A stretch of DNA of 64,000 bases from an uncultured Bacteroidales bacterium (GTDB taxonomy: Bacteria; Bacteroidota; Bacteroidia; Bacteroidales; UBA932): assembly GCA_944322585.1 (NCBI GenBank), contig CALUPB010000002.1, positions 68,729 through 132,728 of the forward strand, read 5' to 3'. This document shows, in pieces, positions 10,980 through 63,971 of this stretch. Each line of letters begins with the position of its first letter. The first letter of the stretch is position 1. Both the position numbers and the translations under genes were made by a program. A model generated the notes under the pieces. That model was not told where the DNA came from. It was given only the letters and a program-made list of their open reading frames with translations, and did no database searches.

Positions 10980-10986
10980 ACCGCAT

Positions 10987-44208: not shown

Positions 44209-44220
44209 AGGAAAACGACT

Positions 44221-46209
44221 ATGAGACATTTCAAGACGACAACGGTGCTCATCCTTTCCCTCGTGCTGTCCGGATGCAGCGATCTGAAATTCGGGAACGC
44301 TTTCCTGGAAAAGGCTCCTGGAGTGGATGTGACCATCGACACCATATTCTCCTCGAAATTCTATGCGGACAGGGCCCTCGTATCGGCATACGCAACCCTG
44401 AGATGCGGATATACGGTCCACAACCAGGCGTGGCCCATCGGTTCCGGAGGAGCATACAAATACGAGAACTCCGGCAACAAGGTCGGGAATGACGTTCTGG
44501 ATGCCCTTACGGACCTCATCAACTCACACTGCAACTGGGGAGGGGCATACAACACCTACTATTTCGGACAGTATAACGCCGAATTCGAAAACGGGAGCAG
44601 CAGCACCAAATTCGGCTTCACTCCGGAACTGGAAACGGCCTGGATCGGTATCCGCAAGGCCTTCCTGTACATCAACAACGTGGACCGTGTCCCGGACATG
44701 ACCGAGGAGGAAAAGACAAGAGGAAAGGGAGAAGCCTACGTAATAATAGCCACCCATTATCTCGACATGCTGCGCCATTTCGGAGGAATTCCTCTCCTGA
44801 AGACTGACGTGTCCACGAGCAATGATTCCGAAACAGACTATACGAGACAGTCTGTCGAAGCCGTAATCGACTATATCGTCTGGCTCTGCGACACCGCAGC
44901 CGGGATGCTTCCGTGGACAGTGAGTGAAGATCAGGACGGACGCATGACAAGGGCGGCCGCCATGGGGCTGAAATGCCGGGCACTGCTTTTCGCCGCAAGC
45001 CCGCTGTTCAACTCTGGACAGCCTTATTCCGCAGTCCGTCCTGAAATCAGAGGAGGCAACATAGGAAAAGTAAACGACAGCGACGTCCCATCGATGTACT
45101 GGCTCGGGAGATACGATGCGTCCCGATGGGAAGCCGTGGTGGATGCCTGCGAAGCCTTCTTCGAAGAAAACAGGATCAACGGCAACCCATACACCCTGAT
45201 ACAGTCTTCAGGAACGTCATCGGACGACTACCGTTCCACCTGGAACAGGACATACGCCGACAGATACAACGGTGAAATCATCATCGCCACGGGACGGCAG
45301 ATGCCTACATTCGCAGACACTTACCACAGATGCTATTTCGGCCCGTCATCCGACATAGACGGAAATACGGGACGAGGCTACGGAGGAGGCTGCGTAACCC
45401 TGAATTTCGTTGACCTTTTCCCTACTGCCGACGGACACAGGGCCCTGTACCGGGACTGGATAGCCGCCAACGGGAACGAGGGGACCCTGAACGACCATCC
45501 GTTCCAGAACAGGGATCCCCGCCTGTATGAATCCGTCATGATACTCGGAGACCATTTCCAGGGAAGACAGGCCGAAATGTGGATAAACGGCCGTGAAAGG
45601 ATGTCGGAAAGCGACCCGAGAGCCGCCACCGGCTTCTCATCGAGGAAATTCATCTGGGACTACAACAGTGCCACTTTCCATGACAAGCCGGCCAACTACT
45701 CATACCTCAGGCTGGCGGAAATAATACTGACATATGCGGAAGCCCTGAACGAGACCGGAAACCCAGAAGGAGCGATAGAGCAGTTGAATCTGATCCGCAA
45801 CAGGGTCGGGCTGCCTGACCTTACACCTGAACTCCTTGAAGAAATGCAGGCAGGGAAAACCTTCCCGAAATACGATGACTGCACTCTTGTCGGAGACGAG
45901 GCATTGCGGGAGGAAATCCTGGACGAACGGGCAAGGGAACTGTTCTTCGAAGAATGCCGCTGGTACGACATGGTAAGATGGGAGCGGGCGGACATTTTCC
46001 GGAAAGATCTTGAAGGAATACAGATCCGCATCATCAGAGGCACTACTGATGACAACGATTTCAGCGATCTGGTATTCTCCTTCTCCGATCCTGTCAAGGA
46101 AGAACCGAGATACTGGGCCACCAACTGGGATCCGAAATGGTATCTCAGCGCATTCCCTCCGAACGAAATAAACAAAGGGTACGGACTTGTCCAGAACCCG
46201 GGATGGTAA
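44221..46209 (+). CDS. SusD/RagB-family nutrient-binding lipoprotein (first)
   Basis: 662 residues with a lipoprotein signal (lipobox LSGC, then SDLKFG). TPR-like helices carry the SusD core: AEIILTYAEALNETG, IEQLNLIRNRVGLPDL, LDERARELFFEECRWYDMVRW and LVQNPGW at the end. It forms the lid of the preceding SusC and binds the glycan at the cell surface. It is longer than the usual 500-600 residues, mostly from an insertion in the central part. Confidence 0.95.
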   Translation: MRHFKTTTVLILSLVLSGCSDLKFGNAFLEKAPGVDVTIDTIFSSKFYADRALVSAYATLRCGYTVHNQAWPIGSGGAYKYENSGNKVGNDVLDALTDLINSHCNWGGAYNTYYFGQYNAEFENGSSSTKFGFTPELETAWIGIRKAFLYINNVDRVPDMTEEEKTRGKGEAYVIIATHYLDMLRHFGGIPLLKTDVSTSNDSETDYTRQSVEAVIDYIVWLCDTAAGMLPWTVSEDQDGRMTRAAAMGLKCRALLFAASPLFNSGQPYSAVRPEIRGGNIGKVNDSDVPSMYWLGRYDASRWEAVVDACEAFFEENRINGNPYTLIQSSGTSSDDYRSTWNRTYADRYNGEIIIATGRQMPTFADTYHRCYFGPSSDIDGNTGRGYGGGCVTLNFVDLFPTADGHRALYRDWIAANGNEGTLNDHPFQNRDPRLYESVMILGDHFQGRQAEMWINGRERMSESDPRAATGFSSRKFIWDYNSATFHDKPANYSYLRLAEIILTYAEALNETGNPEGAIEQLNLIRNRVGLPDLTPELLEEMQAGKTFPKYDDCTLVGDEALREEILDERARELFFEECRWYDMVRWERADIFRKDLEGIQIRIIRGTTDDNDFSDLVFSFSDPVKEEPRYWATNWDPKWYLSAFPPNEINKGYGLVQNPGW

Positions 46210-46242
46210 CAGATTCCCTTACCTGAATTAATACCTTGGAAT

Positions 46243-49227
46243 ATGAAAAGAACAACAGCAATCATTATATTCTTATGCATGGCAGTATATGCCTATGCCC
46301 GGGAAATCGATGTCACCATCCGTATCAAGGGCGAAAACGGCAGGCCGATGCCCCACGTAGCCGCATGGTACGACAATACCGGAGGCCAGATATTCTCGGA
46401 TGACGCCGGTATCCTGAAACTGACCGTCACCGAAGGCACCCCCATAACCCTTGTCAAGGAAAACGAATACATGAGACAGGTCATTGCCGACAGGGAAGAC
46501 CTGACCGTCATCATGGACGCTTCGTGCAGAATTCTGGGCACGGGCTTCAATGAATTCATAACGAAACGGACGAGTGCCGCCGCGGTCGACGGAGTCGTGG
46601 CCGCCGATTTTGAAGGACACACCCAGCCCCAGATAATGAATGCCCTCTACGGGCTTCTTCCCGGTCTGACCGTCAGCATGTCGGGGACCGAACCGTGGCC
46701 GGGCAACAACAATCCGTACCTGCACGTACGGGGAAAGGGCTCATTCAACGGGAACAAGGTCCTTGTCATAGTCGACGGTACCGTGCGCGACCCTTCGACC
46801 ATAGATGTCAATGAAGTACAGAGCGTATCCGTACTCAAGGATGCCGCCGCACTTGCCATATACGGAGTCCGCGGCGCAGACGGGGCTGTCGTCATCACCA
46901 CGAAACGAGGAGGAGACCATAAATTCAGGGCCAATGTCGGATACCGGTTCGGCATGCTGACCCCGTTCAGGGTGCCCGACATGGCTTCTCCTTCAGAATA
47001 TGCCGAGGCATATAATGAAGCACGCCTGAATGACGGGCTTGCGGCCTGGTACACGCCGACAGACCTGAAGAATATCGCCGCCGGACAGGTGATACCGACC
47101 ACAAGATGGAAGGACGCAATTCTCAGGGACATGGGGTTCAGCCATGATGTCCATATGACCCTGGACGGAAGCAGCGAACGGACAAGATATTTCGTCTATG
47201 CCGATTTCAGAAGCAACAGCGGCTTTTTCAACAGCTACAACACCGGGCTGACGGATGGCATGGACACCCAGCTCGAATACTATTCGCTCAAGCTCAGGTC
47301 CAACCTCGACATAAAGATAACCCGCACCACCGATCTCATCATCAATCTCGCAGCCCGCATCCACCAGCAGCAGACCCCGATCGGAGGGACAGGGCTGGAC
47401 TTCATGTACAACACCCCTACGGCCGGTATTCCGGACAGGTTCAACGGGAAGTGGGTACGGACGGAACTGTTCAGAAACCCGGTCGGACAGATGATGGGCA
47501 GGGGATACAAGTCAAGCCTCGAGCGTATGCTGCAGGGAGACATCACGCTAAGGCAGGATCTCTCGGCAATCACACAGGGGCTCAAGGCAGAGATAAGGGT
47601 AGCCTACGACAATGCATCCAACACCTTTGACCAGAAATCCTTCGACTGGTCGTACTATATCCCGATGGAGGTCAGGAACGATGCAGGGGATATCGCCGGA
47701 TACCGGTTCAGCCAGTACGGCAATGACACCGAAATATCGTTCAACACGGGAATATCCTCCCAGTACATGCAGAGTGACGTATGGGTAAAACTGTTCTGGG
47801 ACAGAACTTTCGACAAGCATGCAGTCAAGGCCGCCGCCCTGTTCAACCGCGACAGGCTGTCCTACACCGGAGCCAACCAGACTTTCGTGCATCACGACTA
47901 CATACTTGCTGCCGACTACAGCTATGCGGGCAAATACCTTCTCAGCATAGCCGGCACATATTCGGGCAGCAGCAAGCTCCCGAAAGGGGACAAGTTCAGA
48001 TTCTATCCTGCCGTATCCGCCGGATGGGTAATCTCGGAAGAGGATTTCCTGCGTGACAGCCGGGCCGTAGACTACCTGAAACTCCGGGGTTCGTACGGAC
48101 TTTCCGGACAGGACAATGCGCTCAGCTACGACATGGACATACAGTTCAACGGTGAAGGCAACAAATATATCTTCTCCGGTTCGACGGAACTGAAAGGCCA
48201 GACGGAAGGAGCCCTGCCATCCTACGGTATCGAGCCGGAGCTGGAAGCGAAAGCCGACATAGGAGTGGAATTCGGATTTTTCGGAGGTCTGACAGGAGAA
48301 GTGGATCTGTTCTACAATCACCGCAGAAACATAAGGACAACCGGCACCAGCACTGTCTCTTCAGTACTCGGCATCGGAGTCGGGGACGTATTCACGGGTG
48401 AAACGGAGAACCGTGGATTCGAAGTTTCCCTTGGATGGGAGCAGCATAAAGGCAACTGGTCATATTATCTTAAAGGAAATTTCGCCTTTGCCCGAAACAG
48501 GATCATTTCCATCAACGAGGAATATCATCCTTATACGTACATGGACTACAGAGGGAACAGTATCGGAACGTTCTACGGGCTTGTCGCTGACGGTTTCTAT
48601 CAGGAGAGCGATTTCGACTCCGACGGAAAGCTCCTGTCTTCACTTCCTGCCAATACCTTTGCATCCGTACAGCCGGGAGACGTCAGGTACAGGGACCTCA
48701 ACGGAGACAAGAGGATAGACTCGTACGACTATACATACCAGTTGAAGCCGGACACTCCGGAAATCTATTACGGCTTCCGGGTCGGGCTCGACTACAAGGG
48801 ACTCGGGTTCAATGCGTGGTTCCAGGGAGCAGGCTCATATACAATCAAGACTACCCTGCCCGGCGTATATCAGCCGCTTTATGGAGGGGACAAGAATATC
48901 TCCCGGCATTATCTTGAAAGCTACTGGTCCGCCGACAACACTTCAGCCCGCTACCCGAGGCTGACCACCATGCAGAACACCAACAACTACCTTGAAAGCA
49001 GCCTCTGGACCGAGGCCGGACATTACTTCAAGCTACGGGAACTCGAAATATACTACAGACTTCCGGAAAAGCTTATGGAATCCTGGAAAATGCAGGATAT
49101 CAAGGTATTTTTGAGAGGCAACAATCTGTTCTCGGCCGACGGCATCGGAATTCTCGACCCTGAATACATCAGTCTGGGATATCCTGTCGCCAGAACATTC
49201 TCAATAGGATTCAATATGGCATTTTAA
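46243..49227 (+). CDS. SusC-family transporter (second, with divergent N-terminal domain)
   Basis: 994 residues. Signal peptide, an N-terminal domain only distantly like the carboxypeptidase-regulatory type (IDVTIRIKGENGRPMPHVAA), then the plug (YLHVRGKGSFNGNKVLVIVD, VSVLKDAAALAIYGVRGADG) and the barrel, ending SIGFNMAF. The TonB-box region differs from that of the first SusC (FNEFITKRTSAAAVDGV). Its partner is the SusD gene 17 bp downstream. It probably takes up a different part of the same glycan. Confidence 0.95.
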   Translation: MKRTTAIIIFLCMAVYAYAREIDVTIRIKGENGRPMPHVAAWYDNTGGQIFSDDAGILKLTVTEGTPITLVKENEYMRQVIADREDLTVIMDASCRILGTGFNEFITKRTSAAAVDGVVAADFEGHTQPQIMNALYGLLPGLTVSMSGTEPWPGNNNPYLHVRGKGSFNGNKVLVIVDGTVRDPSTIDVNEVQSVSVLKDAAALAIYGVRGADGAVVITTKRGGDHKFRANVGYRFGMLTPFRVPDMASPSEYAEAYNEARLNDGLAAWYTPTDLKNIAAGQVIPTTRWKDAILRDMGFSHDVHMTLDGSSERTRYFVYADFRSNSGFFNSYNTGLTDGMDTQLEYYSLKLRSNLDIKITRTTDLIINLAARIHQQQTPIGGTGLDFMYNTPTAGIPDRFNGKWVRTELFRNPVGQMMGRGYKSSLERMLQGDITLRQDLSAITQGLKAEIRVAYDNASNTFDQKSFDWSYYIPMEVRNDAGDIAGYRFSQYGNDTEISFNTGISSQYMQSDVWVKLFWDRTFDKHAVKAAALFNRDRLSYTGANQTFVHHDYILAADYSYAGKYLLSIAGTYSGSSKLPKGDKFRFYPAVSAGWVISEEDFLRDSRAVDYLKLRGSYGLSGQDNALSYDMDIQFNGEGNKYIFSGSTELKGQTEGALPSYGIEPELEAKADIGVEFGFFGGLTGEVDLFYNHRRNIRTTGTSTVSSVLGIGVGDVFTGETENRGFEVSLGWEQHKGNWSYYLKGNFAFARNRIISINEEYHPYTYMDYRGNSIGTFYGLVADGFYQESDFDSDGKLLSSLPANTFASVQPGDVRYRDLNGDKRIDSYDYTYQLKPDTPEIYYGFRVGLDYKGLGFNAWFQGAGSYTIKTTLPGVYQPLYGGDKNISRHYLESYWSADNTSARYPRLTTMQNTNNYLESSLWTEAGHYFKLRELEIYYRLPEKLMESWKMQDIKVFLRGNNLFSADGIGILDPEYISLGYPVARTFSIGFNMAF

Positions 49228-49244
49228 CGGGAGGAAACACCACT

Positions 49245-50849
49245 ATGGGAAAAACACTATATTGTTCAATAATACTGTCAGGATGCCTGCTCCCGCTTGC
49301 AGCCTGCAGTGATCTGGAAATAGACGAGTCCGTCTATCACACAAAAACATACCAGTTCAGCGACTTCGACAAGGTCAAGGAAGTCATGACCAATGTATAC
49401 GGCTATCTCGAAACGGGTTTCGCTCCGGTCGGAGGGACAATGCGGGACTGCGCCAGCGATGATGCAGTCTATGCAGGCATCTATGATCCGACGGAGACAT
49501 TCCATAACGGAAGCTGGTCGTCCAACTATCTTATCGACGACAAATGGAACCATTATTATGCAGGTATCAGGGCGGCGAACTATCTGATGGAAAACTGTCC
49601 TGACGACTTCCCTGCTGCACAGTGGCAGGAGACTTACGAGCGCGATCTCGCACAACTCAGGAACTTCCCGTGGGAGGCTAAGGCCCTCAGGGCGTGGTTT
49701 CATTTCGAACTGCTCAAACGTTATAACAAAATCATCATAGCCGACCGCTCGTTCACTGAAGAAGAAGTGAACGGCCTGTCCCAAAGCACATTCTCCCATA
49801 CGGCCGACTGGATAGCGGCCGAGCTCGAAGAAGCCGCGGAACACCTGCCGGCCGACTATAACAGCGGTCTCCTCGCCCAGTTCTCCGAACTCGGACGTGT
49901 CACCAAAGGCTTCGCTCTCGCGGCAAGGGCAAGAGTCCTGCTTTATGCGGCAAGCCCGCTGAACAATCCGGACGGAGACAAGGAAAAATATTTCAAGGCC
50001 GCGGCAGCTGCAAAGGAATTCATGGACTGGAACCGGACGGCCCGAATATATTCTTTAGTTGAAGGAGAAGAATTCAATAAGGAAAACGCAAAGGGTCTTG
50101 TCTTCGGCATACGGGAAAAGGCAAGCAACGCTTTCGAAAGCGCCAATTTCCCGGTAGGTTATGAAGGTGGCAATTCCGGCGTATGTCCGACAAGAAATCT
50201 GGTGGAAGCATTCGAGGCAGGGGATCCGCGTCTATCAAAAACCGTACTGTCCAACGGGGACGCGTTCAAGGGAACCGCCGTAGAATCCTATACCGGAGGG
50301 AGGAACGGACCGCCACGGGATCTGGCTTCACCTACATCATACTATCTCAGGAAATTCATCCAGGAAAGTACAAACCTTGCTGTCGGCAGCACCACTTCAT
50401 TCCAGCATATCTGGCCAGTACTCAGGCTGCATGAAGTCTATCTCAACTATGCGGAAGCCCTCTTCGAGGCCACAGGCGACCCGTATTTCACCGGTTCCCA
50501 CGGGGACGTGAACTTTTCAATGACCCCGGTGGAGGCAGTCAATGCCGTCCGGGCCGCGGCTCCGATGCCGGATCTTCCCGAAGACCTGGACGCCGCCACA
50601 TTCAGGACAAGACTCAGGAACGAACGGCGGGTGGAACTGGCTTTCGAAGACCACCGTTTCTGGGATATCCGCAGGTGGAAAACCGGTGACGAAACCACTG
50701 AAATCTACGGACTGGCCATCGAATACGGAGGCAGCTCCGAAAAGGAGCTCGTCCAGTCAAGGGTATGGGATGACAGAATGTATTTCTACCCTATTTCCGC
50801 CTCCGAAACATTCAAAAATCTGGAACTCGAACAAAACCCGGGCTGGTAA
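49245..50849 (+). CDS. SusD/RagB-family lipoprotein (second)
   Basis: 534 residues, lipobox LAAC followed by SDLEID. Typical SusD features: LRLHEVYLNYAEALFEATG, LRNERRVELAFEDHRFWDIR, and the terminal LEQNPGW shared by the family. It is shorter and clearly different from the first SusD, consistent with a second ligand specificity. Confidence 0.95.
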   Translation: MGKTLYCSIILSGCLLPLAACSDLEIDESVYHTKTYQFSDFDKVKEVMTNVYGYLETGFAPVGGTMRDCASDDAVYAGIYDPTETFHNGSWSSNYLIDDKWNHYYAGIRAANYLMENCPDDFPAAQWQETYERDLAQLRNFPWEAKALRAWFHFELLKRYNKIIIADRSFTEEEVNGLSQSTFSHTADWIAAELEEAAEHLPADYNSGLLAQFSELGRVTKGFALAARARVLLYAASPLNNPDGDKEKYFKAAAAAKEFMDWNRTARIYSLVEGEEFNKENAKGLVFGIREKASNAFESANFPVGYEGGNSGVCPTRNLVEAFEAGDPRLSKTVLSNGDAFKGTAVESYTGGRNGPPRDLASPTSYYLRKFIQESTNLAVGSTTSFQHIWPVLRLHEVYLNYAEALFEATGDPYFTGSHGDVNFSMTPVEAVNAVRAAAPMPDLPEDLDAATFRTRLRNERRVELAFEDHRFWDIRRWKTGDETTEIYGLAIEYGGSSEKELVQSRVWDDRMYFYPISASETFKNLELEQNPGW

Positions 50850-54925: not shown

Positions 54926-57312
54926 ATGAAAAACTTTATTGTCCATATCGTGACAATTGCAGCTTATTCTATCGTCATGATACAGTGTTCTGGTCCTGTA
55001 TCAAGACTTGAACGAGCTCTACAGGCAGCCGGCAGCAACAGACATGAACTGGAACAAGTCCTCTACCGTTATTCCTCAGACCCTGCCGACAGCCTGAAAT
55101 ACAGGGCTGCCGTATTCCTTATAGAGAATATGCCTGGACATTCCTATTATGAGGGAGAACAGCTGGACCGGTATCTCGAATATTATCCTGTCCTCCGTAC
55201 AATGATGCAGGCAGGGAAAGCGCCACAAGCTGCCGCAGATTCCATTATCGGCAAATACGGGATTTTTGACTCGTCAAAATTAAAACTCCTGTATGATGTC
55301 GCAACCGTAGATTCCGCCTATTTGTGCAATAATATTGAATGGGCTTTTAAAGTATGGCACGAACAGCCCTGGGGAAAGAATATTCCATTTGAAGATTTTT
55401 GCGAATATCTTCTTCCATATAGAGTCGGCAATGAGACCTTACCGGAATGGCGTGAAAAATATTACAAAAAATACAATGAACTTCTGGATACATTGCGTAC
55501 ATCCCAAAAGACAGACAAAGAAGACCCGTTACAAGCTGCTTTGTGCATAATCAACTCCCTCCTCCAACCAGATCAGATTTACTTCACGACAACTGTTCCG
55601 GCCGACCTGCCCCATGTCGGGCCTGACATGGCAGAAGCCAAAAGCGGCACTTGCAGAGAGATGTCCGATTTTGTATTATATGTATGCCGGGCCTTGGGAA
55701 TACCTTGTGCTGTCGATTATATGCCCGTACGGGGGAATGACAATGTCGGACATTTCTGGGTAACATTATGGGATAAAACAGGAGAATTATATTTTCAGGA
55801 ATTCGGCGAGTCTCCTCAAATACTAAAAGACTCCCACATAATCAGAGCTCCAAAGGCAAAAGTCTACAGATCAATGTATGGTTCCGATCTGGATATGACT
55901 GAAAAATATTCGGATCATTTTCTGAAAAGTATAGAAATCCCTTCTTCTGCCATTTACTCGGGACGCAAGCCTGAAACAATATATTTATGCATGCATTCCA
56001 GATCCGACTGGATTCCTGTTGATTCTACATATTACCGCAGAAATCGCATTGAGTTCAACAATATTTGCGGAGGGAACGTATTCCGGCTCGCGTCAAAACA
56101 TCCGGGAAAGATACGGTTCCGGTCAGACCCTTTCTATCTCGGGACCAACGGGGATTTACACTTTTTTAAAAAGAATAAAGGGAAACAGAATATAACAGTA
56201 TTTGCAAAATTCCCACCGGCTATTTTCAACTCCCGTATGCCAGGAGGAGTATTTGAAGGCAGCAATGATATTTCTTTCAGGCAAAAGGATACATTATTCG
56301 TGATAGACAATAAACCGGTAAGGCTTTTCTCGACGGCTAATATTACGGATACTGCGAAGTACCGCTATATCCGGTATTTCGGTCCGAATAACGGATACTG
56401 TAACGTCGCAGAACTCGCTTTCTATGACAAATACGGCAAAAAACTTCAAGGCAAGCCTGTCGGAACATCATGGGAAAAGACACATGATTATCATAAAGCA
56501 TTCGATGGCACTACCTTGACTTCATTTGATGATTTTAAACCTTCCGGAGGTTGGGCAGGGATGGACTTCGGGAAAGCGGTAACGGTATCCGAAATAATAT
56601 ATATTCACCAAGAAATTACGACAACTATGTAAGAGAGGGTGACAAATATGAACTTTTTTATTGTGACGGTATCTGGAAATCTGCCGGGAAAGCTATAGCT
56701 TCTTCCGATTCTCTTGTTTTCCACGATGTACCTGCCGGTACTCTGTATCTGCTTAAAAATCATTCTCGTGGAGTACAGGAAAGGGCATTCGCATACGAAA
56801 ACGGCAAACAATTATGGGACAGAGAGATTGAAACAGTTTTTCAAGCAAGGGAAATACCGGAAGAGCAATTACATCCTTCCATTGCCAGAATGTCATATGA
56901 AAAAACATGGGAAGGGCATTACACATATGCATACCCTGGCACTGGATGGGAGAAACCAGACTACAACGATTCCGCATGGAGATACGGGAAAGCCGCATTC
57001 GGTACCGCAGGTTTAATAGGGGTCAATACCTTGTTCTTGACTAAAGATATATGGGTCAGGCGGCGTATCATATTCGACCCTAAAACAATACACAGAAAAA
57101 AACTGTTTGTCAGATTTTCTCACGATGATGATTTTCAGCTCTATATCAATGGACTTCCCGTTATTTCAGAGAAAGGATGGCAGACAGATGCAACAGTAGA
57201 AATACCGGATTCCATAACCAGGACAATGGTGAACGGAGAAGCTCTTCTTGCCGCTCATTGCAGGAATTTCAACGGAGACAGCATGGTAGATTTTGGAATA
57301 TATATAAAATAA
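54926..57312 (+). pseudogene. Transglutaminase-like and discoidin-domain lipoprotein split by a 2-nt frameshift
   Basis: Two frames belong to one protein of about 794 residues. The first frame (54926-56632) starts with a lipoprotein signal (MIQC) and has a transglutaminase-like core with Cys about 243 (SGTCREMSDFVLYVCRALGI) and His about 276 (NVGHFWVTLWD). It then enters an F5/8-type discoidin domain (NVAELAFYDKYGKKLQG). It leaves frame after VSEIIY; the second frame resumes with SPRNYDNYVREGDKYELFY. It ends in a galactose-binding-like domain (WRYGKAAFG, LFVRFSHDDDFQLYINGLP). Removing one AT from ATATATAT (56597-56604) rejoins both frames. It may be a sequencing error, a true pseudogene or a phase switch. 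Confidence 0.85.
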
Positions 57313-57333
57313 ATCACTGTTGGATTCATTCGT

Positions 57334-57353
57334 GTCCACTAAAAATAGTGGAC
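57334..57353 (+). terminator. 7-bp hairpin before the first NVEALT gene
   Basis: GTCCACT (57334-57340) and AGTGGAC (57347-57353) enclose a 6-nt A-rich loop, 22 bp after the stop of the split gene. It might end PUL transcription or act as an attenuator for the peptide gene at 57390. The stem is short and no T-run follows. Confidence 0.4.
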
Positions 57354-57389
57354 GATAGTTATAAAGTTTAACTTTTAAATTTATCAGTC

Positions 57390-57611
57390 ATGAAAAGACT
57401 TCTGATTTCAGCGGCTGCTGCGGCAGCTCTTGTGACAGGCCTGGTGCTCGGCCTGCACTCTATGCGTAACCTCGACCCGATCCTCGAAGCCAACGTCGAG
57501 GCCCTGACCAGCGGAGAAACGTCTAAAGAAGGGTTTAACACCGTACTGAAAATTGAATCCAGTCATACCTTGATATGTAAGGGATCCGGAAATCTGGAGT
57601 GTACGTGGTAA
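57390..57611 (+). CDS. NVEALT-family secreted peptide precursor 1
   Basis: 73 residues. Leader of about 43 residues: start MKRLLISAAAAAALVTGLVL, then GLHSMRN, LDPILEANVEALT and SGE. The N-terminus is a signal-like hydrophobic helix. The NVEALT motif defines the Bacteroidota family of that name, whose function is unknown. The tail (TSKEGFNTVLKIESSHTLIC to the end, ECTW) has two cysteines and shares nothing with the other three tails. A beta-propeller lipoprotein gene starts 22 bp downstream. Confidence 0.85.
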   Translation: MKRLLISAAAAAALVTGLVLGLHSMRNLDPILEANVEALTSGETSKEGFNTVLKIESSHTLICKGSGNLECTW

Positions 57612-57633
57612 ATGATTTTAAAACATATCGAAT

Positions 57634-58752
57634 ATGAGGTCGAAACATATACTATGGATTATCGCGGGATTGTCAGTGTTGGGTTCCTGTCGGCAGGAAG
57701 AGATGTCAGGAGATCCTATGCCTGTGGAATTCAGGAGCGGAACGACTGACCTGCATCTTGACATGGAATATCTTGCCCTTGATGTTCCTGATGATATGGT
57801 TCTGGGTAACATCGACCTGATAGACGATGACGGGACATACATCTATCTTCTTCAGGTCCAGTCGGCAGGAGCCGGAGTGTATGTGTTCGACCTTGGGACA
57901 GGCTCATACGAGACAAAGATAGGGAACAGGGGGAGAGGCCCCGGGGAGTATGTAATACCCATGTCCTTTACTCTGATGGACAGTAAGATATGTATTATAG
58001 ACGGAGGGTCACAAAAAGCATTATATTACGATATAGGTGACAGTTTCCGGTATCTCGGTGACAAACCGGTGGAGGATATCAGTTCTTTTGAAAAATATGA
58101 CAGCAACCGTCTGATCAGCGGGAATAATGTATATTACGGAAATTCCGGATTCCGGGACAAGGGCTTTCTGCTGCTTGACAGCAATTTTACGGTGCAGAAA
58201 GGGATGGTGGACAAGATGGTTGTATCCGGATATATGACCGGCCCGCTGAAATCGGTATACAGGAGTGGAGACAGAGTGCGGACGTATATGCAGTCCGATC
58301 CTGTAATATATGAATATGACGGATGTGAGATGGTTCCCGTATATGAACTGTCTTTCGAGGGGTACAGCTTTCCTTCCGCAGATTATCTGAGGAAGATATC
58401 CAGAGGAGGCAGGGATTACACCCGTGCTTTGCGTGAGTCGGGCTATATATCTTATTATGACTTTTTCGAGACGGAAGATGCCATGTTGTCTCTTTTCATG
58501 TCAGGAGGAGAAAGACATGTGGGTATATATTCAAAACGGACGGGCAAGTCGCGCATTTTTACGGAGTCGGGACTGGAGAAAATCTCTCCGTATGGGCCGC
58601 TGTTCATATCGGGGACTGTAGACGAAAGGATTGCGATAGTCCTGCCCGTATCGGAACTGAAGGCTATGGACAATCTCCCCCGTGAACTGCAGCCAATTGT
58701 GCGTAATGCATCGGAAACGGATATTGTTCTCCAATTAATCAAAGTACCATAA
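57634..58752 (+). CDS. Six-bladed beta-propeller lipoprotein 1
   Basis: 372 residues. Lipobox LGSC followed by RQEEMSGD. The mature protein is beta-rich with the family hallmark NRGRGPGEY (about residue 98), seen in the 6-bladed beta-propeller proteins of Bacteroidota. Blade-like repeats continue to the C-terminus. It probably sits in the outer membrane or periplasm. It is paired with NVEALT peptide 1, 22 bp upstream. I infer a partner or receptor role; no catalytic residues are evident. Confidence 0.85.
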   Translation: MRSKHILWIIAGLSVLGSCRQEEMSGDPMPVEFRSGTTDLHLDMEYLALDVPDDMVLGNIDLIDDDGTYIYLLQVQSAGAGVYVFDLGTGSYETKIGNRGRGPGEYVIPMSFTLMDSKICIIDGGSQKALYYDIGDSFRYLGDKPVEDISSFEKYDSNRLISGNNVYYGNSGFRDKGFLLLDSNFTVQKGMVDKMVVSGYMTGPLKSVYRSGDRVRTYMQSDPVIYEYDGCEMVPVYELSFEGYSFPSADYLRKISRGGRDYTRALRESGYISYYDFFETEDAMLSLFMSGGERHVGIYSKRTGKSRIFTESGLEKISPYGPLFISGTVDERIAIVLPVSELKAMDNLPRELQPIVRNASETDIVLQLIKVP

Positions 58753-58784
58753 GAGGTTTGTCAAGTCTTGATTAAGTGGTGGAT

Positions 58785-58792
58785 TATATTTG
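58785..58792 (+). promoter_or_regulatory. Candidate -7 box of NVEALT unit 2
   Basis: TATATTTG matches TAnnTTTG, 70 bp before the ATG at 58862. The -33 element is not at standard spacing. A small stem AGCTC/GAGCT follows at 58809-58825. This suggests that unit 2 can be transcribed on its own. Confidence 0.45.
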
Positions 58793-58861
58793 CCGAGAAT
58801 AAAAGAAAAGCTCCTTGAAAGAGCTGATAATAACATTATTAACAATTAAAAACTCAGAAAC

Positions 58862-59107
58862 ATGAAGAAGTTTTTGATTTCAGCAGCTGCTGCGGCAGCT
58901 CTCGTGACAGGTCTGGTGCTCGGCCTGCACTCTATGCGTAACCTCGACCCGATCCTCGAAGCCAATGTCGAGGCGTTGACAAGGAACGAAGGTGGAGGAG
59001 GATATGATTGTCCCGGCGCATGTCTGACATGGGCAGGAAGTACAGGCGGTGGGATAGATTGCATGTGTCACAGGTATGCAGGAAGGTGTAAGAGATGGTG
59101 TGACTAA
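58862..59107 (+). CDS. NVEALT-family secreted peptide precursor 2 (six-cysteine tail)
   Basis: 81 residues. The leader is nearly identical to precursor 1 (MKKFLISAAAAAALVTGLVL, LEANVEALT). The tail begins RNEGGGGYDCPGACLTWAG and ends GRCKRWCD. It has six cysteines (DC, AC, DC, MC, RC, WC), plus Gly and several Trp/Arg, which suggests three disulfides in a compact extracytoplasmic peptide. A propeller lipoprotein and a CxxC lipoprotein follow in the same unit. Confidence 0.88.
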   Translation: MKKFLISAAAAAALVTGLVLGLHSMRNLDPILEANVEALTRNEGGGGYDCPGACLTWAGSTGGGIDCMCHRYAGRCKRWCD

Positions 59108-59130
59108 TTGTCGGATTATGTCATGATTAT

Positions 59131-60177
59131 ATGAGAAAGTTTGTAAAATATGATTTGGGTATTCTGATAATATCCTGGATGTTCTATTCTTGTACATCTT
59201 ATCATGGTGCAGAGAAGCACTTCGATGCAACTGTTAAAATAAATGCGGAATGTATTATTATCAATGAACTGTTAGGGATAAACAATATCATCAAACTCGA
59301 TGATTATCTAATATTGCAGAATGGAAGTGAAGGCGTTGAGGATTTTTTCTTTGTATATTCCTGTCCCGAAATGGATTTCCTTTATTCTTTTGCCAAGCGA
59401 GGAAGAGGTCCAAATGAATATTTTTTTCCTGCAATAATAAAGAATACACCAGGGAATATTCTGGGCTTCCGGGATCATGCGACAGACAAACTGGCTTTTT
59501 ATGAGGTCACTGATACTTGCGCCAACTTATGCAATACAATCCCTTTCAAATCCCAGGACAATTTTCGCTTCTTTTGGGAAATAACTTATGTTTCCGATTC
59601 ATTATATTTAACTAAGCATCAGGGATATAAAACAGGAGCTACAGAACTGTGGAATATAAAAACGGCTACTTTAACAGACAGTCTTCCCAATACCTTTAAA
59701 AATTTACCCCGGGAATTGGGTAAAGATTACTATACTATTTTCGATGATTACTTTATCGCCGGGAACGGAAACAGGTTCGTATTGGCCTATCTCATGATAG
59801 ACAGGATAGATTTCGGAATTATTGACGGAGGCAAAATGTCAATTGTGTCATCGGTGGGAACTACATCAACTCCAAATTTCTATTTATATAAACGAAACGA
59901 GACAACGGAATTCAATGTAGATAGAAACATAGTATACTATGAGAATGTATTTGCCGGAGCAGAATATGTATATGCCCTTTATTCGGATGACCGACTTGAT
60001 AATACTGAACGAAATCATTCTTCCATCATTGAAATATACGATTGGTCGGGATCTCCGGTAACACTATTGCGACTTGATATTCCCGTTGCTTATTTCACTG
60101 TTGATGAAGCGAACAGAATTATTTATGCGGTGAACCCGGAATTATCAGAAGAACAGATATTAAAATATACATTTTAA
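59131..60177 (+). CDS. Six-bladed beta-propeller lipoprotein 2
   Basis: 348 residues, 23 bp after peptide 2. Lipobox FYSC. Family hallmark KRGRGPNEYFFP near residue 90. More AT-rich than propeller 1 and only weakly similar outside the hallmark, so it appears to co-vary with its own peptide. Likely lipid-anchored outside the cytoplasm. Confidence 0.82.
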   Translation: MRKFVKYDLGILIISWMFYSCTSYHGAEKHFDATVKINAECIIINELLGINNIIKLDDYLILQNGSEGVEDFFFVYSCPEMDFLYSFAKRGRGPNEYFFPAIIKNTPGNILGFRDHATDKLAFYEVTDTCANLCNTIPFKSQDNFRFFWEITYVSDSLYLTKHQGYKTGATELWNIKTATLTDSLPNTFKNLPRELGKDYYTIFDDYFIAGNGNRFVLAYLMIDRIDFGIIDGGKMSIVSSVGTTSTPNFYLYKRNETTEFNVDRNIVYYENVFAGAEYVYALYSDDRLDNTERNHSSIIEIYDWSGSPVTLLRLDIPVAYFTVDEANRIIYAVNPELSEEQILKYTF

Positions 60178-60189
60178 GATTTCGCATAT

Positions 60190-60762
60190 ATGCATTTTCG
60201 GTATAAATTGATAGTAATTTGTATTTTGATGATGTCTCTGTCAGCATGTAAAGAGTATCATATCTCAAGGCAGTTAAGATCATTTATGAACAACACGATA
60301 ACTGTGCCATCTGAAATGCAAGTTATTTGTGGCAGGAATATATGTCCTGTAGATACTTATTCAGCCAATAAAGCACGACTGATAATTCTATTCGATTCAT
60401 TGGAATGTTCATCTTGTCAAATCAATAAGTTATTTAATTATGTATCAGCATACGAAAAAATCAGAGCTCTTCCTGATTGTGATTTAATGACAGTGTTTTC
60501 TCCTAGACAAGAAGAGTATGACGAAACTGTCAGACAACTGATGATACTGAATTTCCCTTATCCCATATATATTGATTTTTGGGGAAATTTTCGAAAATTA
60601 AACAAATGTATACCGGATGATACTAAATTTCACAGTTTTCTGATAAATAAAAATGGCAAGCCGGTATTTGTCGGGAATCCTATGCATAGTCCTCAAATGA
60701 TGGAATTATTCATGGAGACTATGGATAGATTAAGAATGGACGAAGAAGTGCAAAGGGAGTAA
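60190..60762 (+). CDS. Thioredoxin-like lipoprotein with CxxC motif
   Basis: 190 residues, 12 bp after propeller 2. Lipobox LSAC. The line IILFDSLECSSCQINKLFNY has a CxxC pair placed after a beta strand, as in thioredoxin folds. LNFPYPIYIDF and FLINKNGKPVFVGNP follow, typical of TlpA/redoxin-like proteins (strand plus K-x-G-x-P turn). Probably a membrane-tethered thiol-disulfide protein. Its place next to the six-cysteine peptide suggests a role in disulfide formation or reshuffling of that peptide, which is inference. AT-rich. Confidence 0.75.
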   Translation: MHFRYKLIVICILMMSLSACKEYHISRQLRSFMNNTITVPSEMQVICGRNICPVDTYSANKARLIILFDSLECSSCQINKLFNYVSAYEKIRALPDCDLMTVFSPRQEEYDETVRQLMILNFPYPIYIDFWGNFRKLNKCIPDDTKFHSFLINKNGKPVFVGNPMHSPQMMELFMETMDRLRMDEEVQRE

Positions 60763-60914
60763 TGAAAAATATTTTAACAATAACATTATTGACCGGTGCT
60801 TCATTGTTCTCATCAGACCTTCATGCCCAGCAGCTGACGCCGAATGAGGCAATCGGAGTGGCGCGGATGCAGAATTTCGCGGCGGTCATTACCGACATAG
60901 GACAGACGTTATGA
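60762..60914 (+). pseudogene. Short exported ORF, possible truncated protease N-terminus
   Basis: 50 codons: signal peptide MKNILTITLLTGASLFSSDL and HAQQLTPNEAIGVARMQNF, ending TDIGQTL. The start overlaps the stop of the CxxC lipoprotein (TAATG), so it would be translationally coupled. The part after the signal (QQLTPNEA) recalls the propeptide start of C10-type cysteine proteases in Bacteroidota, but the rest is missing. Likely a 5' fragment left by recombination when the next peptide unit arrived. Confidence 0.45.
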
Positions 60915-60974
60915 TACAGATGCCATAATGGTATCAGTTATAGCTGTTTTATTAACTTTTAAATTCTGTCAGTC
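60910..60974 (+). promoter_or_regulatory. Conserved leader with hairpin before NVEALT gene 3
   Basis: Matches 62586-62650 at most positions. It contains GATGCC (60919-60924), loop ATAAT, GGTATC (60930-60935), then TTTTATTAACTTTTAAATTC and TGTCAGTC directly before the ATG. The copy at 62.6 kb has GATACC in the left arm, so the difference keeps RNA pairing (G-U versus A-U). The TTAACTTTTAAATT and CAGTC parts also precede peptide gene 1 at about 57.37 kb. Confidence 0.6.
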
Positions 60975-61250
60975 ATGAAAAAACTTCTGATTTCAGCGGC
61001 TGCCACGGTAGCTCTCGTGACAGGTCTGGTGCTCGGCCTGCACTCGATGAGTGACATCGACCCTATCCTCGAGGCCAATATCGAGGCCCTGACCAGCGGA
61101 GAAGGGAATTATGATTATCCGGATGGATATCCATACTCCGTCAAATGTAACGTAAGTTTAGGCGGATTACGGAAATGTCAGGCTACAGTAATAACATGTC
61201 AAGGCGGTGGATCCGGCTGCAATGAAAGGCCATGCCCGGTACATCATTAA
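60975..61250 (+). CDS. NVEALT-family secreted peptide precursor 3 (five cysteines)
   Basis: 91 residues. Leader as in the others with small changes (LHSMSDIDPILEANIEALTS), i.e. NIEALT. The tail is longer: it starts GNYDYPDGYPYSVKCNVSLG and ends CNERPCPVHH, with five cysteines. An odd number could leave one free thiol or allow a dimer. It is followed 10 bp later by propeller 3. Confidence 0.87.
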   Translation: MKKLLISAAATVALVTGLVLGLHSMSDIDPILEANIEALTSGEGNYDYPDGYPYSVKCNVSLGGLRKCQATVITCQGGGSGCNERPCPVHH

Positions 61251-61260
61251 TAATGCATAG

Positions 61261-62364
61261 ATGAGAAATTTCTATTTCATTTTACTGATCATTCTGGTCC
61301 AGGGCTGTGTCTCTGAACCGGATATCAGTTTTGACTGTACCATAGACTGCAATACAGATGACATGACGGATAACAGTCCGGATTATGTCGGAAGTGTTTC
61401 ATATCTTCCCCTTGCCGCATACGGAGATGCCGTATTCAGGAATATCGACAAGATGTGCTTTAGGAACGGCCTGATATATATTGCAGACTATAAATCAGGG
61501 AAAATCATTGCGTATACACTGAAAGGCGATATTGACTTCGTGCTTGACAGGAAAGGAAGAGGACCGGGAGACTATCTCGACATCAAGAGTTTCACTGTGG
61601 ACAGCGACTGCCTGTATATCCTCGACAATTTCAACAGGAAAATATTCGTCTATGACAGTACCGACGGGACTTTCATAAGGTCGGCTGACATCGGTTTCGT
61701 TGCCTGGGATATGGAGGTCTTTGATAACGGTGACTTTGCCTTTGCATTCTCTCCGATGAAAGGCGGACATTTGAATAGCGGACAGCCTCGTGGAAGAATT
61801 CTTATTACGGATGGTGAGTTCCGGATCAAAGAATCGTTGCTTGAATATAAGGCCGGAAAATATGACCTTATAGGTCAGTTGAGGTATTTCTCCACATACG
61901 GTGAGAAATTGCTGTACTCTTCAATATGTTTCGACGGTTTCATGATTTTCGACAGAGGAAATCCGGAGAACAGGAAATATGTGGGACTCCGGTTTTCCCG
62001 GCCAATTCCGAAGTCCTCGAGACAGGATGAGAACGTTCTGGACAAAAATTACAATTATCTGGCAAATGTCCCTATATTGTGTGATGACTATGTCATGACG
62101 ACAATCAATGACAAGTCCGGTTATATATCGAATTACATGTACAATTCTGCCACAGGAACATGGTCTGAAAATCCGGAAGGCGGATGCAGGAATTATATTT
62201 ACTTCCCAATCGCGAGTTATGACGGTAGTTTCGTGAGTCTGATTGACGCAGAATCTGTGTATGACGAACTGATAGCGACAGGTTTTACCCGGGCGGATGA
62301 GGTAACGGAAAAACATTTGAGGCAAGGCAATCCCGTGCTGCTGTTTTATAAAATGAAAATATAA
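61261..62364 (+). CDS. Six-bladed beta-propeller lipoprotein 3
   Basis: 367 residues. Lipobox VQGC. Hallmark DRKGRGPGDYLDI near residue 98. Blade-like strands continue (LYILDNFNRKIFVYDS, FAFSPMKGG). It is 10 bp after peptide 3, so the two are co-translated. The same lipoprotein-plus-propeller plan as its three relatives, with low sequence identity outside the hallmark. Confidence 0.85.
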   Translation: MRNFYFILLIILVQGCVSEPDISFDCTIDCNTDDMTDNSPDYVGSVSYLPLAAYGDAVFRNIDKMCFRNGLIYIADYKSGKIIAYTLKGDIDFVLDRKGRGPGDYLDIKSFTVDSDCLYILDNFNRKIFVYDSTDGTFIRSADIGFVAWDMEVFDNGDFAFAFSPMKGGHLNSGQPRGRILITDGEFRIKESLLEYKAGKYDLIGQLRYFSTYGEKLLYSSICFDGFMIFDRGNPENRKYVGLRFSRPIPKSSRQDENVLDKNYNYLANVPILCDDYVMTTINDKSGYISNYMYNSATGTWSENPEGGCRNYIYFPIASYDGSFVSLIDAESVYDELIATGFTRADEVTEKHLRQGNPVLLFYKMKI

Positions 62365-62371
62365 AAGTCAT

Positions 62372-62587
62372 ATGTCTATAATAAGCAGGCGAATATCTAT
62401 TCTGTATGTTGTCGGTCTTGCGATGTCCATATTATACGATGAGTGGACGGCATTACTGATGCAGAGAAGTCGATATGATAAATCTGTTATAGCAATTGAT
62501 AAAACTGTGATAATAAAATGCTCCGAGCGAGTTTGTAACGGAATACAGCGCAATTGGCTGTTGGGGAAAGATCATTTCGGGAAATAA
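62372..62587 (+). CDS. Small protein of unknown function
   Basis: 71 codons starting 7 bp after the stop of propeller 3. N-terminal positive residues (MSIISRRISILYVVGLAMSI) and a hydrophobic stretch suggest membrane insertion. The C-terminus has two cysteines (KCSERVC) and ends KDHFGK. It has no family I recognise. It occupies the place taken by the CxxC lipoprotein in unit 2. It may be a fragment or a small membrane protein; no strong ribosome-binding site is seen. Confidence 0.4.
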   Translation: MSIISRRISILYVVGLAMSILYDEWTALLMQRSRYDKSVIAIDKTVIIKCSERVCNGIQRNWLLGKDHFGK

Positions 62588-62650
62588 TGATACAGATACC
62601 ATAAAGGTATCCGTTATAACTGTTTTATTAACTTTTAAATTCTGTAAGTT
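62586..62650 (+). promoter_or_regulatory. Conserved leader with hairpin before NVEALT gene 4
   Basis: Copy of the leader at 60910-60974. The stem GATACC (62595-62600), loop ATAAA and GGTATC (62606-62611) pair perfectly. The same TTTTATTAACTTTTAAATTC follows and runs up to the ATG. No TAnnTTTG box is seen inside, so it may be a post-transcriptional element or carry an alternative promoter. Confidence 0.6.
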
Positions 62651-62908
62651 ATGAAAAGACTTCTGATTTCAGCGGCTGCCGCGGCAGCTCTTGTGACAGG
62701 TCTGGTGCTCGGCCTGCACTCGATGAGTAACCTCGACCCTATCCTCGAAGCCAATGTCGAGGCCCTGACTAACGGGGAGGGAGATGTCGTCGATGTACCA
62801 TGCGTCTCCAGAGACAGTGAGTGTGTCATGACTGTCCGGGATATCAATGGCAACCAATATGAACTGACAATATCAGGGTTAGCCAATAAAGGCATTTTGG
62901 TCAGATAA
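62651..62908 (+). CDS. NVEALT-family secreted peptide precursor 4
   Basis: 85 residues. Leader MKRLLISAAAAAALVTGLVL, LHSMSNLDPILEANVEALTN. Tail starts GEGDVVDVPCVSRDSECVMT and ends ANKGILVR, with two cysteines. Its leader codons differ from those of peptide 1 at only about a dozen of 129 bases, whereas the tails are unrelated. The next gene begins 1 bp after its stop. Confidence 0.87.
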   Translation: MKRLLISAAAAAALVTGLVLGLHSMSNLDPILEANVEALTNGEGDVVDVPCVSRDSECVMTVRDINGNQYELTISGLANKGILVR

Positions 62909-62909
62909 G

Positions 62910-63971
62910 ATGAAATGTTATTCCATAATACTTTGTGCCGGTCTGGTCCTGTCGTGCAGTACAGGACCGGATATAAATGACAGAAAACCGGTTACGGATT
63001 ACATATCCGGACAGGTTCTGTATAGTCGGGATTTAATCGGTGATACTTTCATCGGCATAACCGGAGATACCGTATTGATGGAATTCTATAAGGCCGATAA
63101 AATCTGCGGTATATTCAAGGTGGAAGGCGATTCTCTCGTGAAAATAAATGAAGTACTGTACAGAGGCAGAGGGCCGAACGAATTTCTCACTCCTATGCTG
63201 AAAATCAGCGGAGACAGCCTGTATGCAGTAGACAGAAATGGTCGTGGCCCGGGCAAGATATGCCGGATGTCACTCGGAGATTTGTCAGTTATGGGGAATA
63301 ATCATGCTTCATGGGAAGGGTCAGATTTGACATGGAGCAATCCTATGAAGTCCGGGAGCGATTTCCAGCCGTTGGGAGAGGGACGGATATTGCTGACCGG
63401 AGATGTCTATGGCGCCATGAACATTCTTTCTGTTCTTGACGTACGTGAACGGAAACGGACGCAGGTCGGGTATTGGATAAAAGACGGGTATACTGGTCCG
63501 GTTATTCCCAAGCAGTCCATCTATACTGCCGGAGCTTCGCTTTCCCGTAAGGGAGACAGGATCCTGTATGTATGCGGAGAAGGGAGGTATATGGAATTGC
63601 TTGATTTGCGGGACGGGAAAATCGTTGATAGAAAGGCGATATATTCAGAGTATCCGAAATATGCTGATATTGACGGTCTCAATTTCGGAGCTGACATAAA
63701 AGGCAACAGGGGCATGAAAGTATATGCGACATCGGATTATATATATGCAATGCTTTATGGCTCATTGGACTACTCCAAGACATATAAAGGATATCCGTGC
63801 TATTTCTTCGATGAGGTGGAGGTTTATGACTGGGAGGGGAATTTTGTCCGGAATTACCGGACATCGCAGCCGTTTATGACATTTGCGGTAGCGGATGACG
63901 ACAGTGCGCTGTATACGCTTTCAATGGATTTGGATACATCGGAGCCACAAATGGTAAAGTATGATTTATGA
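62910..63971 (+). CDS. Six-bladed beta-propeller (TolB-like) lipoprotein 4
   Basis: 353 residues. Lipobox VLSC. Hallmark LYRGRGPNEFLTP near residue 88. Further blade features: SGDSLYAVDRNGRGPGKI and VEVYDWEGNFVRNYRTSQPF, the latter typical of the BF3164/TolB-like group. It starts 1 bp after peptide 4, the tightest coupling of the four units. Confidence 0.85.
   Translation: MKCYSIILCAGLVLSCSTGPDINDRKPVTDYISGQVLYSRDLIGDTFIGITGDTVLMEFYKADKICGIFKVEGDSLVKINEVLYRGRGPNEFLTPMLKISGDSLYAVDRNGRGPGKICRMSLGDLSVMGNNHASWEGSDLTWSNPMKSGSDFQPLGEGRILLTGDVYGAMNILSVLDVRERKRTQVGYWIKDGYTGPVIPKQSIYTAGASLSRKGDRILYVCGEGRYMELLDLRDGKIVDRKAIYSEYPKYADIDGLNFGADIKGNRGMKVYATSDYIYAMLYGSLDYSKTYKGYPCYFFDEVEVYDWEGNFVRNYRTSQPFMTFAVADDDSALYTLSMDLDTSEPQMVKYDL

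Follow-up and report, generated by a model that had tools for sequence, protein, structure and literature searches.

Bacteroidetocins are proven peptide toxins of Bacteroidales (PMC6671954). As described there, they combine a mature part of 42 amino acids (aa) and four cysteines with a thiol oxidoreductase gene that likely forms the disulfides, and they have a double-glycine leader of 15–16 aa, a peptidase-containing ATP-binding cassette (ABC) transporter and no obvious immunity protein; Bacteroides is said in the same report to be without general disulfide-formation machinery. In the published account of the pneumococcal blp region (PMC4860687), peptides are tied to particular immunity genes, leaders recombine between peptides, immunity genes outnumber bacteriocin genes and two-peptide bacteriocins occur. 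Here we describe an array of genes in a 64,000-nucleotide (nt) stretch of DNA, the window, from an uncultured bacterium of the Bacteroidales (GenBank assembly GCA_944322585.1, contig CALUPB010000002.1, positions 68,729 to 132,728 of the forward strand), in which short precursor peptides with a common leader and unrelated C-terminal tails each stand ahead of a propeller lipoprotein. We observe the architecture of this array, the co-variation of its tails and propellers across genomes and the exchange of tail-plus-propeller cassettes, and we infer from the sequences that the tails would be secreted and would kill and that the propellers would confer immunity. The best reading of its class is a polymorphic, Sec-type, disulfide-rich, bacteriocin-like system with propeller immunity proteins; that the tails are secreted bacteriocin-like toxins and the propellers their cognate immunity proteins, in a co-varying array, we hold to be an evenly balanced proposition.

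Tails co-vary with propellers and leaders do not

A preliminary description of the window, which had proposed a conserved leader with diversified tails and matched propellers, named a lack of tail–propeller co-variation across genomes as its refutation; the reverse was found. Among 4,611 cross-genome comparisons of 98 units (those kept, after removal of near-identical ones, from 110 paired units of 36 genomes, 12 of the units being from outside the genus), propellers were similar in 46 of the 47 pairs with similar tails as against 72 of the 4,564 other pairs, and 2,000 within-genome shuffles gave a mean of 10.4 and a maximum of 25 such pairs. When leaders were below 0.4 similarity, 35 of 36 pairs still co-varied, as against 1.4% of 4,101. 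The sole exception is the pair L064_6892 and L115_9036 (tail score 0.49, propeller score 0.16); exceptions at lower tail scores include L055_10583/L073_8952 (0.39, 0.14) and L059_5922/L073_16358 (0.36, 0.05). A first set (60 of 68 units kept; 1,671 cross-genome comparisons) gave a median propeller score of 0.37 where the tail match exceeded 0.4 (n = 25) as against 0.03 where it was below 0.2, and no correlation as high as the observed one arose in 2,000 within-genome shuffles. The median leader score was 0.66 within genomes and 0.27 between them in the first set (0.50 and 0.24 in the larger one), and the unit-3 tail class recurs in genome G339 behind a dissimilar leader (tail 0.52, leader 0.21); judged by these scores, leaders follow the genome and not the tail.

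Because the peptide and propeller genes of the window lie 1–23 nt apart, hitch-hiking is expected, and the propellers could be general envelope lipoproteins that travel with whichever peptide is adjacent. We consider this very improbable: the leader parts company with the tail although both lie in one open reading frame (ORF), whereas the propeller, in the next ORF, stays with the tail, and the shuffles, at 25 at most, fall short of the observed 46.

One tail-plus-propeller block has also changed leaders. Unit 5 of the array and a unit of genome G362 have the same 29-residue tail and 95%-identical propellers behind leaders that are 60% identical; the 95% DNA identity of the block begins at the DPI codons of the motif DPI.EANVEAL, and synonymous divergence (dS) is 1.8 for the leader, 0.05 for the tail and 0.14 for the propeller. 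On this evidence, one block sits behind unrelated leaders in two species. In a weaker case the unit-4 tail occurs unchanged behind a different leader in a metagenomic protein, P0002, from a single contig of 1,104 bases. Leader dS among units 1–5 is 0.16–0.50, as against 1.07 and 1.46 between two units and their orthologs in genome G124, a difference that points to gene conversion or to a single house leader that has spread recently. That the arrays reflect collapsed or chimeric repeats in metagenome-assembled genomes deserves mention, given that the drafts are in many contigs and that P0002 comes from one short contig, but it is scarcely credible: the same anatomy recurs across dozens of species, other families of the Bacteroidales included, and the block shared by our genome (G000) and G362 is 95%, not 100%, identical.

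The tails had been described as sharing no sequence, and indeed those of collected relatives are no closer within a genome than between genomes (median similarity 0.108 and 0.104); 70 tail classes occur among the 110 paired units. After EALT, the tails of units 1–4 have 33, 41, 51 and 45 residues. All 100 distinct tails of paired units contain at least two cysteines, and 74 contain an even number; in an earlier set of 65 distinct tails the count was 2–8, even in 47, and the median length after EALx was 44 aa. The unit-1 tail differs from its ortholog in G124 by a nonsynonymous divergence (dN) of 0.18 and a dS of 2.2, and dN/dS is about 0.08 for this tail and about 0.27 for that of unit 4, ratios that are rough because several of the comparisons show high or saturated silent divergence (the propeller of unit 4 gave no dS). 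Amino-acid changes are far rarer than silent ones in the two tails with a comparable ortholog and in the unit-1 propeller, and the peptide ORFs therefore look like real genes; by this measure the unit-1 and unit-4 tails behave as constrained coding sequence.

Layout of the array and its propellers

The array had been seen as four tandem units. The four peptide/propeller pairs stand, although units 2 and 3 are separated by a thioredoxin-like lipoprotein and a remnant of TolC; they are only the window part of a six-unit array that continues on the contig with units 5 and 6. The features within the window are:

54926..57312, + strand: transglutaminase-like lipoprotein, first gene of the locus, in two overlapping frames (Pfam, array model)
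57326..57520, + strand: upstream-plus-leader cassette of unit 1 (direct repeat D1, copy 1 of 5)
57390..57611, + strand: precursor peptide of unit 1, 73 aa, tail SGETSKEGFNTV... (ORF; orthologous tail in G124)
57634..58752, + strand: propeller lipoprotein of unit 1, DUF5128 (Pfam E 6e-44; PDB relative 4raa, E 7.6e-39)
58798..58992, + strand: upstream-plus-leader cassette of unit 2 (D1, copy 2)
58862..59107, + strand: precursor peptide of unit 2, 81 aa, six cysteines in the tail (ORF)
59131..60177, + strand: propeller lipoprotein of unit 2, TolB_like (Pfam E 4.9e-13)
60190..60762, + strand: thioredoxin-like CxxC lipoprotein, apparent duplicate of the array-end copy (34% identity; no Pfam match)
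60762..60914, + strand: remnant of a TolC-family gene, N-terminal ~40 residues only (identity to intact TolC)
60911..61105, + strand: upstream-plus-leader cassette of unit 3 (D1 reference copy), with a hairpin-like element at 60913-60935
60975..61250, + strand: precursor peptide of unit 3, 91 aa (ORF; same tail class in G339)
61261..62364, + strand: propeller lipoprotein of unit 3, DUF5128 (Pfam E 1.1e-21)
62587..62781, + strand: upstream-plus-leader cassette of unit 4 (D1, copy 4), with a hairpin-like element at 62589-62611
62651..62908, + strand: precursor peptide of unit 4, 85 aa (ORF; identical tail in metagenomic P0002)
62910..63971, + strand: propeller lipoprotein of unit 4, TolB_like (Pfam, above cut-off)

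The gaps between peptide and propeller genes measure 22, 23, 10 and 1 nt in units 1–4, in agreement with the 1–23 bp first noted. Beyond the window, the same contig carries two peptide-less propellers, unit 5, unit 6, a thioredoxin-like lipoprotein, TolC, an adaptor and an RND permease, and further distally a second RND gene, a Wzy_C protein and an extra S26 signal peptidase. (Positions in this locus, L013, become window positions on addition of 55771.) Scanned with the same models, the first 54 kb of the window contain no peptide and no propeller, and one unrelated RND and adaptor pair. Two pairs of TonB-dependent receptor and SusD genes, a polysaccharide-utilisation-type locus, lie ahead of the array at 40966-50849. 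NCBIfam gave no name above its cut-offs among ten window proteins, and PADLOC none among the eight scanned.

As the preliminary description had it, the four peptide ORFs share a leader at both the protein and the DNA level. It is 43 residues long and ends in N[VI]EALT plus three residues, with 79–95% amino-acid identity among units 1–5. The direct repeat D1 (195 nt, from −64 to +131 of the start codon) is 73, 71 and 91% identical to the unit-3 copy in units 1, 2 and 4, and 69% identical in a fifth copy beyond the window; because the repeat takes in 64 nt ahead of the start codon as well as the whole leader, the upstream region and the leader form one cassette. No repeat family in the locus covers the tails. 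All four ORFs encode short proteins in which an N[VI]EAL motif comes after a hydrophobic N-terminus, features which, from the family's name, we take to be traits of NVEALA (PF14055), and they score 23.4, 18.1, 14.6 and 15.5 bits against that model, all under its curated cut-off of 27 bits. The leader is probably cleaved near the end of the conserved part; an AXA site (EALA) was considered as a candidate, but diverged leaders have V, L and M at these positions, which makes it less likely. A 23-nt inverted-repeat element (about GATACC-ATAAA-GGTATC, with changes of the G-U type) has three copies in the whole genome, at window positions 60913-60935 and 62589-62611 and at L013 10564-10586, each ending ~40 nt upstream of a leader, and may be a shared 5' regulatory hairpin. 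The signal sequences of two propellers, L058 12967-14091 and L066 5240-6304, weakly match the leader model (E 0.027 and 0.005), as if their own signal had been swapped for the start of a leader.

Each of the four window propellers has a lipobox (by eye), and Pfam assigns them above cut-off to the six-bladed propeller families DUF5128 (PF17170; units 1 and 3) or TolB_like (PF15869; units 2 and 4). The hallmark RGRGP(G/N)(E/D)(Y/F) earlier ascribed to all four reads KGRGPGDY in unit 3 and is not general, a GRGP-type motif being found in 59 of 104 paired propellers. A structure model of the unit-4 propeller aligns with 3s9j and 4raa; fold searches with the propeller return many general propellers and so show no function. 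Over the 2.87-Mb genome, the two Pfam models find eight propellers, all eight within the array.

Propellers accompany nearly every peptide, and the reverse does not hold. By our own model 110 of 117 peptides have a propeller in range and seven are without an intact one, while 70 of 174 propellers have no detected peptide; six loci (in G138, G209 and G234, and the related G140, G167 and G285) have two similar peptides ahead of a single propeller. The earlier idea of one partner per peptide therefore does not hold strictly. Two of the seven lone peptides precede Pfam DUF5128 or DUF4221 genes that our model missed, two have a propeller behind them in two pieces (with a Pfam propeller match on three of the four pieces) and two are separated from the propeller by an extra ORF; the last, at L107, is followed by a 138-aa ORF and the thioredoxin-like gene and by no propeller. 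This asymmetry is immunity-like. A propeller beside nearly every unit, maturation genes in the loci and the confinement of all propellers found in the genome to the array would also suit dedicated chaperones that fold, modify or deliver non-toxic surface or matrix peptides to a pump or the surface. We think such a carrier or scaffold role unlikely, since carriers should not be more numerous than what they carry and since propellers persist after apparent decay of their peptides, as at L046 (remnant 9839-9979 before the propeller at 9976-10986) and L047 (upstream of 12049). Immunity is favoured over a carrier role by the excess of partner genes, the recombination of leaders and the two-peptide units, as in blp.

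The co-variation and the peptide-less propellers fit pheromones and their receptors equally, each tail acting as the signal of a strain and being perceived by its own propeller at the cell surface or in the periplasm, and tetratricopeptide repeat (TPR) proteins, possibly regulators, stand beside some arrays. These proteins, which measure ~570-600 aa when complete and of which two weakly match DUF6377, occur at L053, L054, L056, L059, L064 and L070, that is in six genomes, some of them near-duplicates. We nonetheless regard signalling as quite unlikely: no kinase, sigma or anti-sigma gene was found among the gene families present in at least three genomes (names judged by eye, and Pfam scans of some of the families), and both two peptides per propeller and abundant cysteine would be unusual for signals.

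Accessory genes, distribution and a proposed pathway

The locus contains genes that may act in processing, oxidation and export. Its S26 signal peptidase (TIGR02227, 86 bits against a cut-off of 47) is distinct from a longer, housekeeping-type one on another contig, and Ser39 and Lys112, which we take to be the catalytic pair, are kept in 35 of 35 relatives. There are two CxxC thioredoxin-like lipoproteins, and the CxxC is kept in 40 of 41 relatives. The copy within the array (60190-60762), predicted to have a thioredoxin-like fold (AlphaFold2 predicted local distance difference test score 77, from three sequences; best PDB match the thioredoxin-like PG_2175), is 34% identical over 176 aa to the distal copy at L013:13469-14026, and the adjacent 50-residue ORF (60762-60914) is 46% identical over 41 aa to the intact TolC at L013:14037-15515; both look like duplicates of the array end. 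The transglutaminase-like gene consists of a 568-aa ORF (54926-56632; Pfam Transglut_core, E 1.9e-6) and a 253-aa ORF (56551-57312), both of which match the array model; its counterpart in G124 is a single long ORF (L015 114-2192), and the split may reflect either decay or assembly error. The transglutaminase cysteine and histidine are kept in 92% of 36 relatives, some of them fragments. The sole match to Wzy_C (O-antigen ligase-like) in the genome, at E 0.01, lies in the locus, and one gene run holds a tripartite RND set: an OEP match, an adaptor (RND_mfp, 138.5 bits against 94.9) and two RND permease genes, of which the one scanned falls under the NCBIfam cut-offs.

Among the stretches fetched from 23 array genomes, those of 18 contain the transglutaminase-like gene and those of 18 the CxxC lipoprotein; 14 genomes have Wzy_C there, 13 TolC, 12 the adaptor, 12 RND and 11 S26. 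These tallies are lowered by short contigs and, for RND and the adaptor, may be raised by unrelated pumps. A protein beginning M.KLYPVGIQNFE, presumably of AAA-ATPase type, adjoins the array in three genomes, another family included (L094 6952-8499, L014 2520-4064, L097 16169-17356).

The exact leader was not found (E 0.001) in 60 other genomes tested, 36 of the genus and 24 of the order. A profile of nine leaders matched 48 of 400 genus genomes, many matches being short and partial; those covering part of a leader inside other ORFs were mostly left out, and the 30 stretches taken, with our own locus, contain 72 peptides that bear the motif, of which 68 are followed by a propeller in range. 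Three stretches (L050, L052 and L072) at first gave no peptide by motif; diverged ones were later found in L050 and L072, and that of L052, which has no start codon, had been overlooked by the ORF rule. Genome G124 (contig CALVAC010000019) has the same outer flanks as our locus around eight units in a different order. Outside the genus, NVEALA is found above its cut-off (E 1e-6) at 15 places in four of 148 genomes, from four other families of the order, and a propeller stands behind the peptide in all 15, directly in 14 and after a 206-aa ORF at L080.

The signal peptidase also served as a blind test for such arrays. A search of 400 genus genomes with S26 only (E 1e-30) matched 247, with a clear gap between 1.4e-52 and the 4.7e-37 of the longer housekeeping type; 36 genomes lie above the gap, namely 18 of the 23 array genomes and 18 of 377 others, if the profile and S26 searches are taken to have drawn the same 400 genomes. 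In a blind check of the 18 genomes picked by S26 alone, 15 had a propeller near the S26 gene and 11 a leader-type peptide before such a propeller, some by weak leader matches (for example G394, E 0.003); G343, G170, G274 and G294 had only a propeller, and G208, G199 and G358 had neither, G208 and G199 being contigs of less than 5 kb.

We suggest the following pathway. One house leader per genome would have reached the various units through recombination within the DPI.EANVEAL codons, a step for which the break is seen in the sequence of one block and the spread is suggested by leader similarity. The hydrophobic leader would carry the precursor through Sec and be cut off near the NVEALx/GE border by the locus-encoded S26 signal peptidase; the CxxC lipoprotein would make the disulfides, and the transglutaminase-like and Wzy_C proteins may be further maturation factors. 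In our own genus the TolC–adaptor–RND set would expel the peptide, while the neighbouring propeller would bind its own tail in the cell envelope and block self-killing. New specificities would arise by insertion of a tail-plus-propeller block behind the resident leader. That all of this amounts to an undescribed class of Bacteroidales peptide weapon, with Sec export, a dedicated signal peptidase, envelope oxidation, possible modification (by the CxxC, transglutaminase-like and Wzy_C proteins), RND expulsion, propeller neutralisation and block swaps behind a house leader, is a tentative proposal that we hold less probable than its contrary.

Several points weigh against reading the tails as toxins and the propellers as their immunity proteins. 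At ~350 aa, the propellers are far larger than usual bacteriocin immunity proteins. Peptide-less propellers fit receptors too, and some may have peptides that the leader model missed; adjacent genes could co-vary through linkage alone. The rank correlation over all first-set comparisons is weak (0.16 versus a null of 0.04) because most tails are unrelated, which is why the contrast among similar tails is the informative test. The residues at the presumed AXA (EALA) positions vary, with V, L and M in diverged leaders, and this makes the cleavage site uncertain. Some of the RND and adaptor counts may come from other pumps, since the two models also match an unrelated pump at window 6730-11108. 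The stretches fetched from the four genomes outside the genus yielded no TolC, adaptor or RND, and the dedicated S26 was not found in five of the 23 array genomes, four of them less than 90% complete. RND pumps are not known to us to export ribosomal peptides, and it is not obvious what the transglutaminase-like and Wzy_C proteins would do for a simple bacteriocin.

Relation to known peptide systems

If true, the toxin–immunity reading would provide members of NVEALA, DUF5128 and TolB_like, all three of them uncharacterised Bacteroidota families, with a function at one stroke, would reveal a large library of cysteine-rich peptides and would supply a directly testable rule for matching peptides to partners; if the peptides kill, it would add a new arsenal, and a new way to build specificity, in anaerobes of the order of Bacteroides. 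NVEALA is named in no paper that we found in the open-access literature, where the family accessions led to papers concerned, by title and opening of the abstract, with Plasmodium or enzyme profiles, and no title found there is on this locus.

The array has the architecture of a polymorphic system: a constant N-terminal part, a variable C-terminal part and an adjacent partner specific to the variable part. In polymorphic toxin systems the immunity gene lies directly behind the toxin gene. As those systems are described (PMC3482391), they too join a constant N-terminal trafficking part to an exchangeable C-terminal part, but in large multi-domain toxins, whereas the array has precursors of 70–100 aa with no recognised toxin domain. 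Members of Pfam NVEALA are likewise short precursors with a hydrophobic N-terminus and an N[VI]EAL motif, and those in the four other families precede propellers; the window peptides differ in scoring below the family cut-off. The clusters of ribosomally synthesized and post-translationally modified peptides surveyed in Bacteroidales (PMC10352776) similarly have short precursors with a leader followed by a core, but the survey ties double-glycine motifs to peptidase-containing ABC transporters (PCAT), and its main text names neither NVEALA nor propellers.

The array resembles the blp region in its tie between peptide and partner gene, its recombining leaders, its surplus of partner genes and its two-peptide units. 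The blp region, as described (PMC4860687), differs in being Gram-positive and in its double-glycine leaders, ABC export, quorum-sensing control and small membrane or CAAX-protease immunity proteins. With bacteroidetocins the array has in common genes of the thiol oxidoreductase type, with CxxC, and cysteine-containing tails of a similar length (median 44 aa). Unlike them, it has a hydrophobic 43-aa leader without a double-glycine site, an S26 peptidase, RND pump genes and a co-varying propeller; no peptidase-containing ABC transporter was seen among the genes of the locus that were read or scanned, a survey that included no dedicated C39 model search. By analogy, the array would be a parallel solution to that of the bacteroidetocins, built from other parts.

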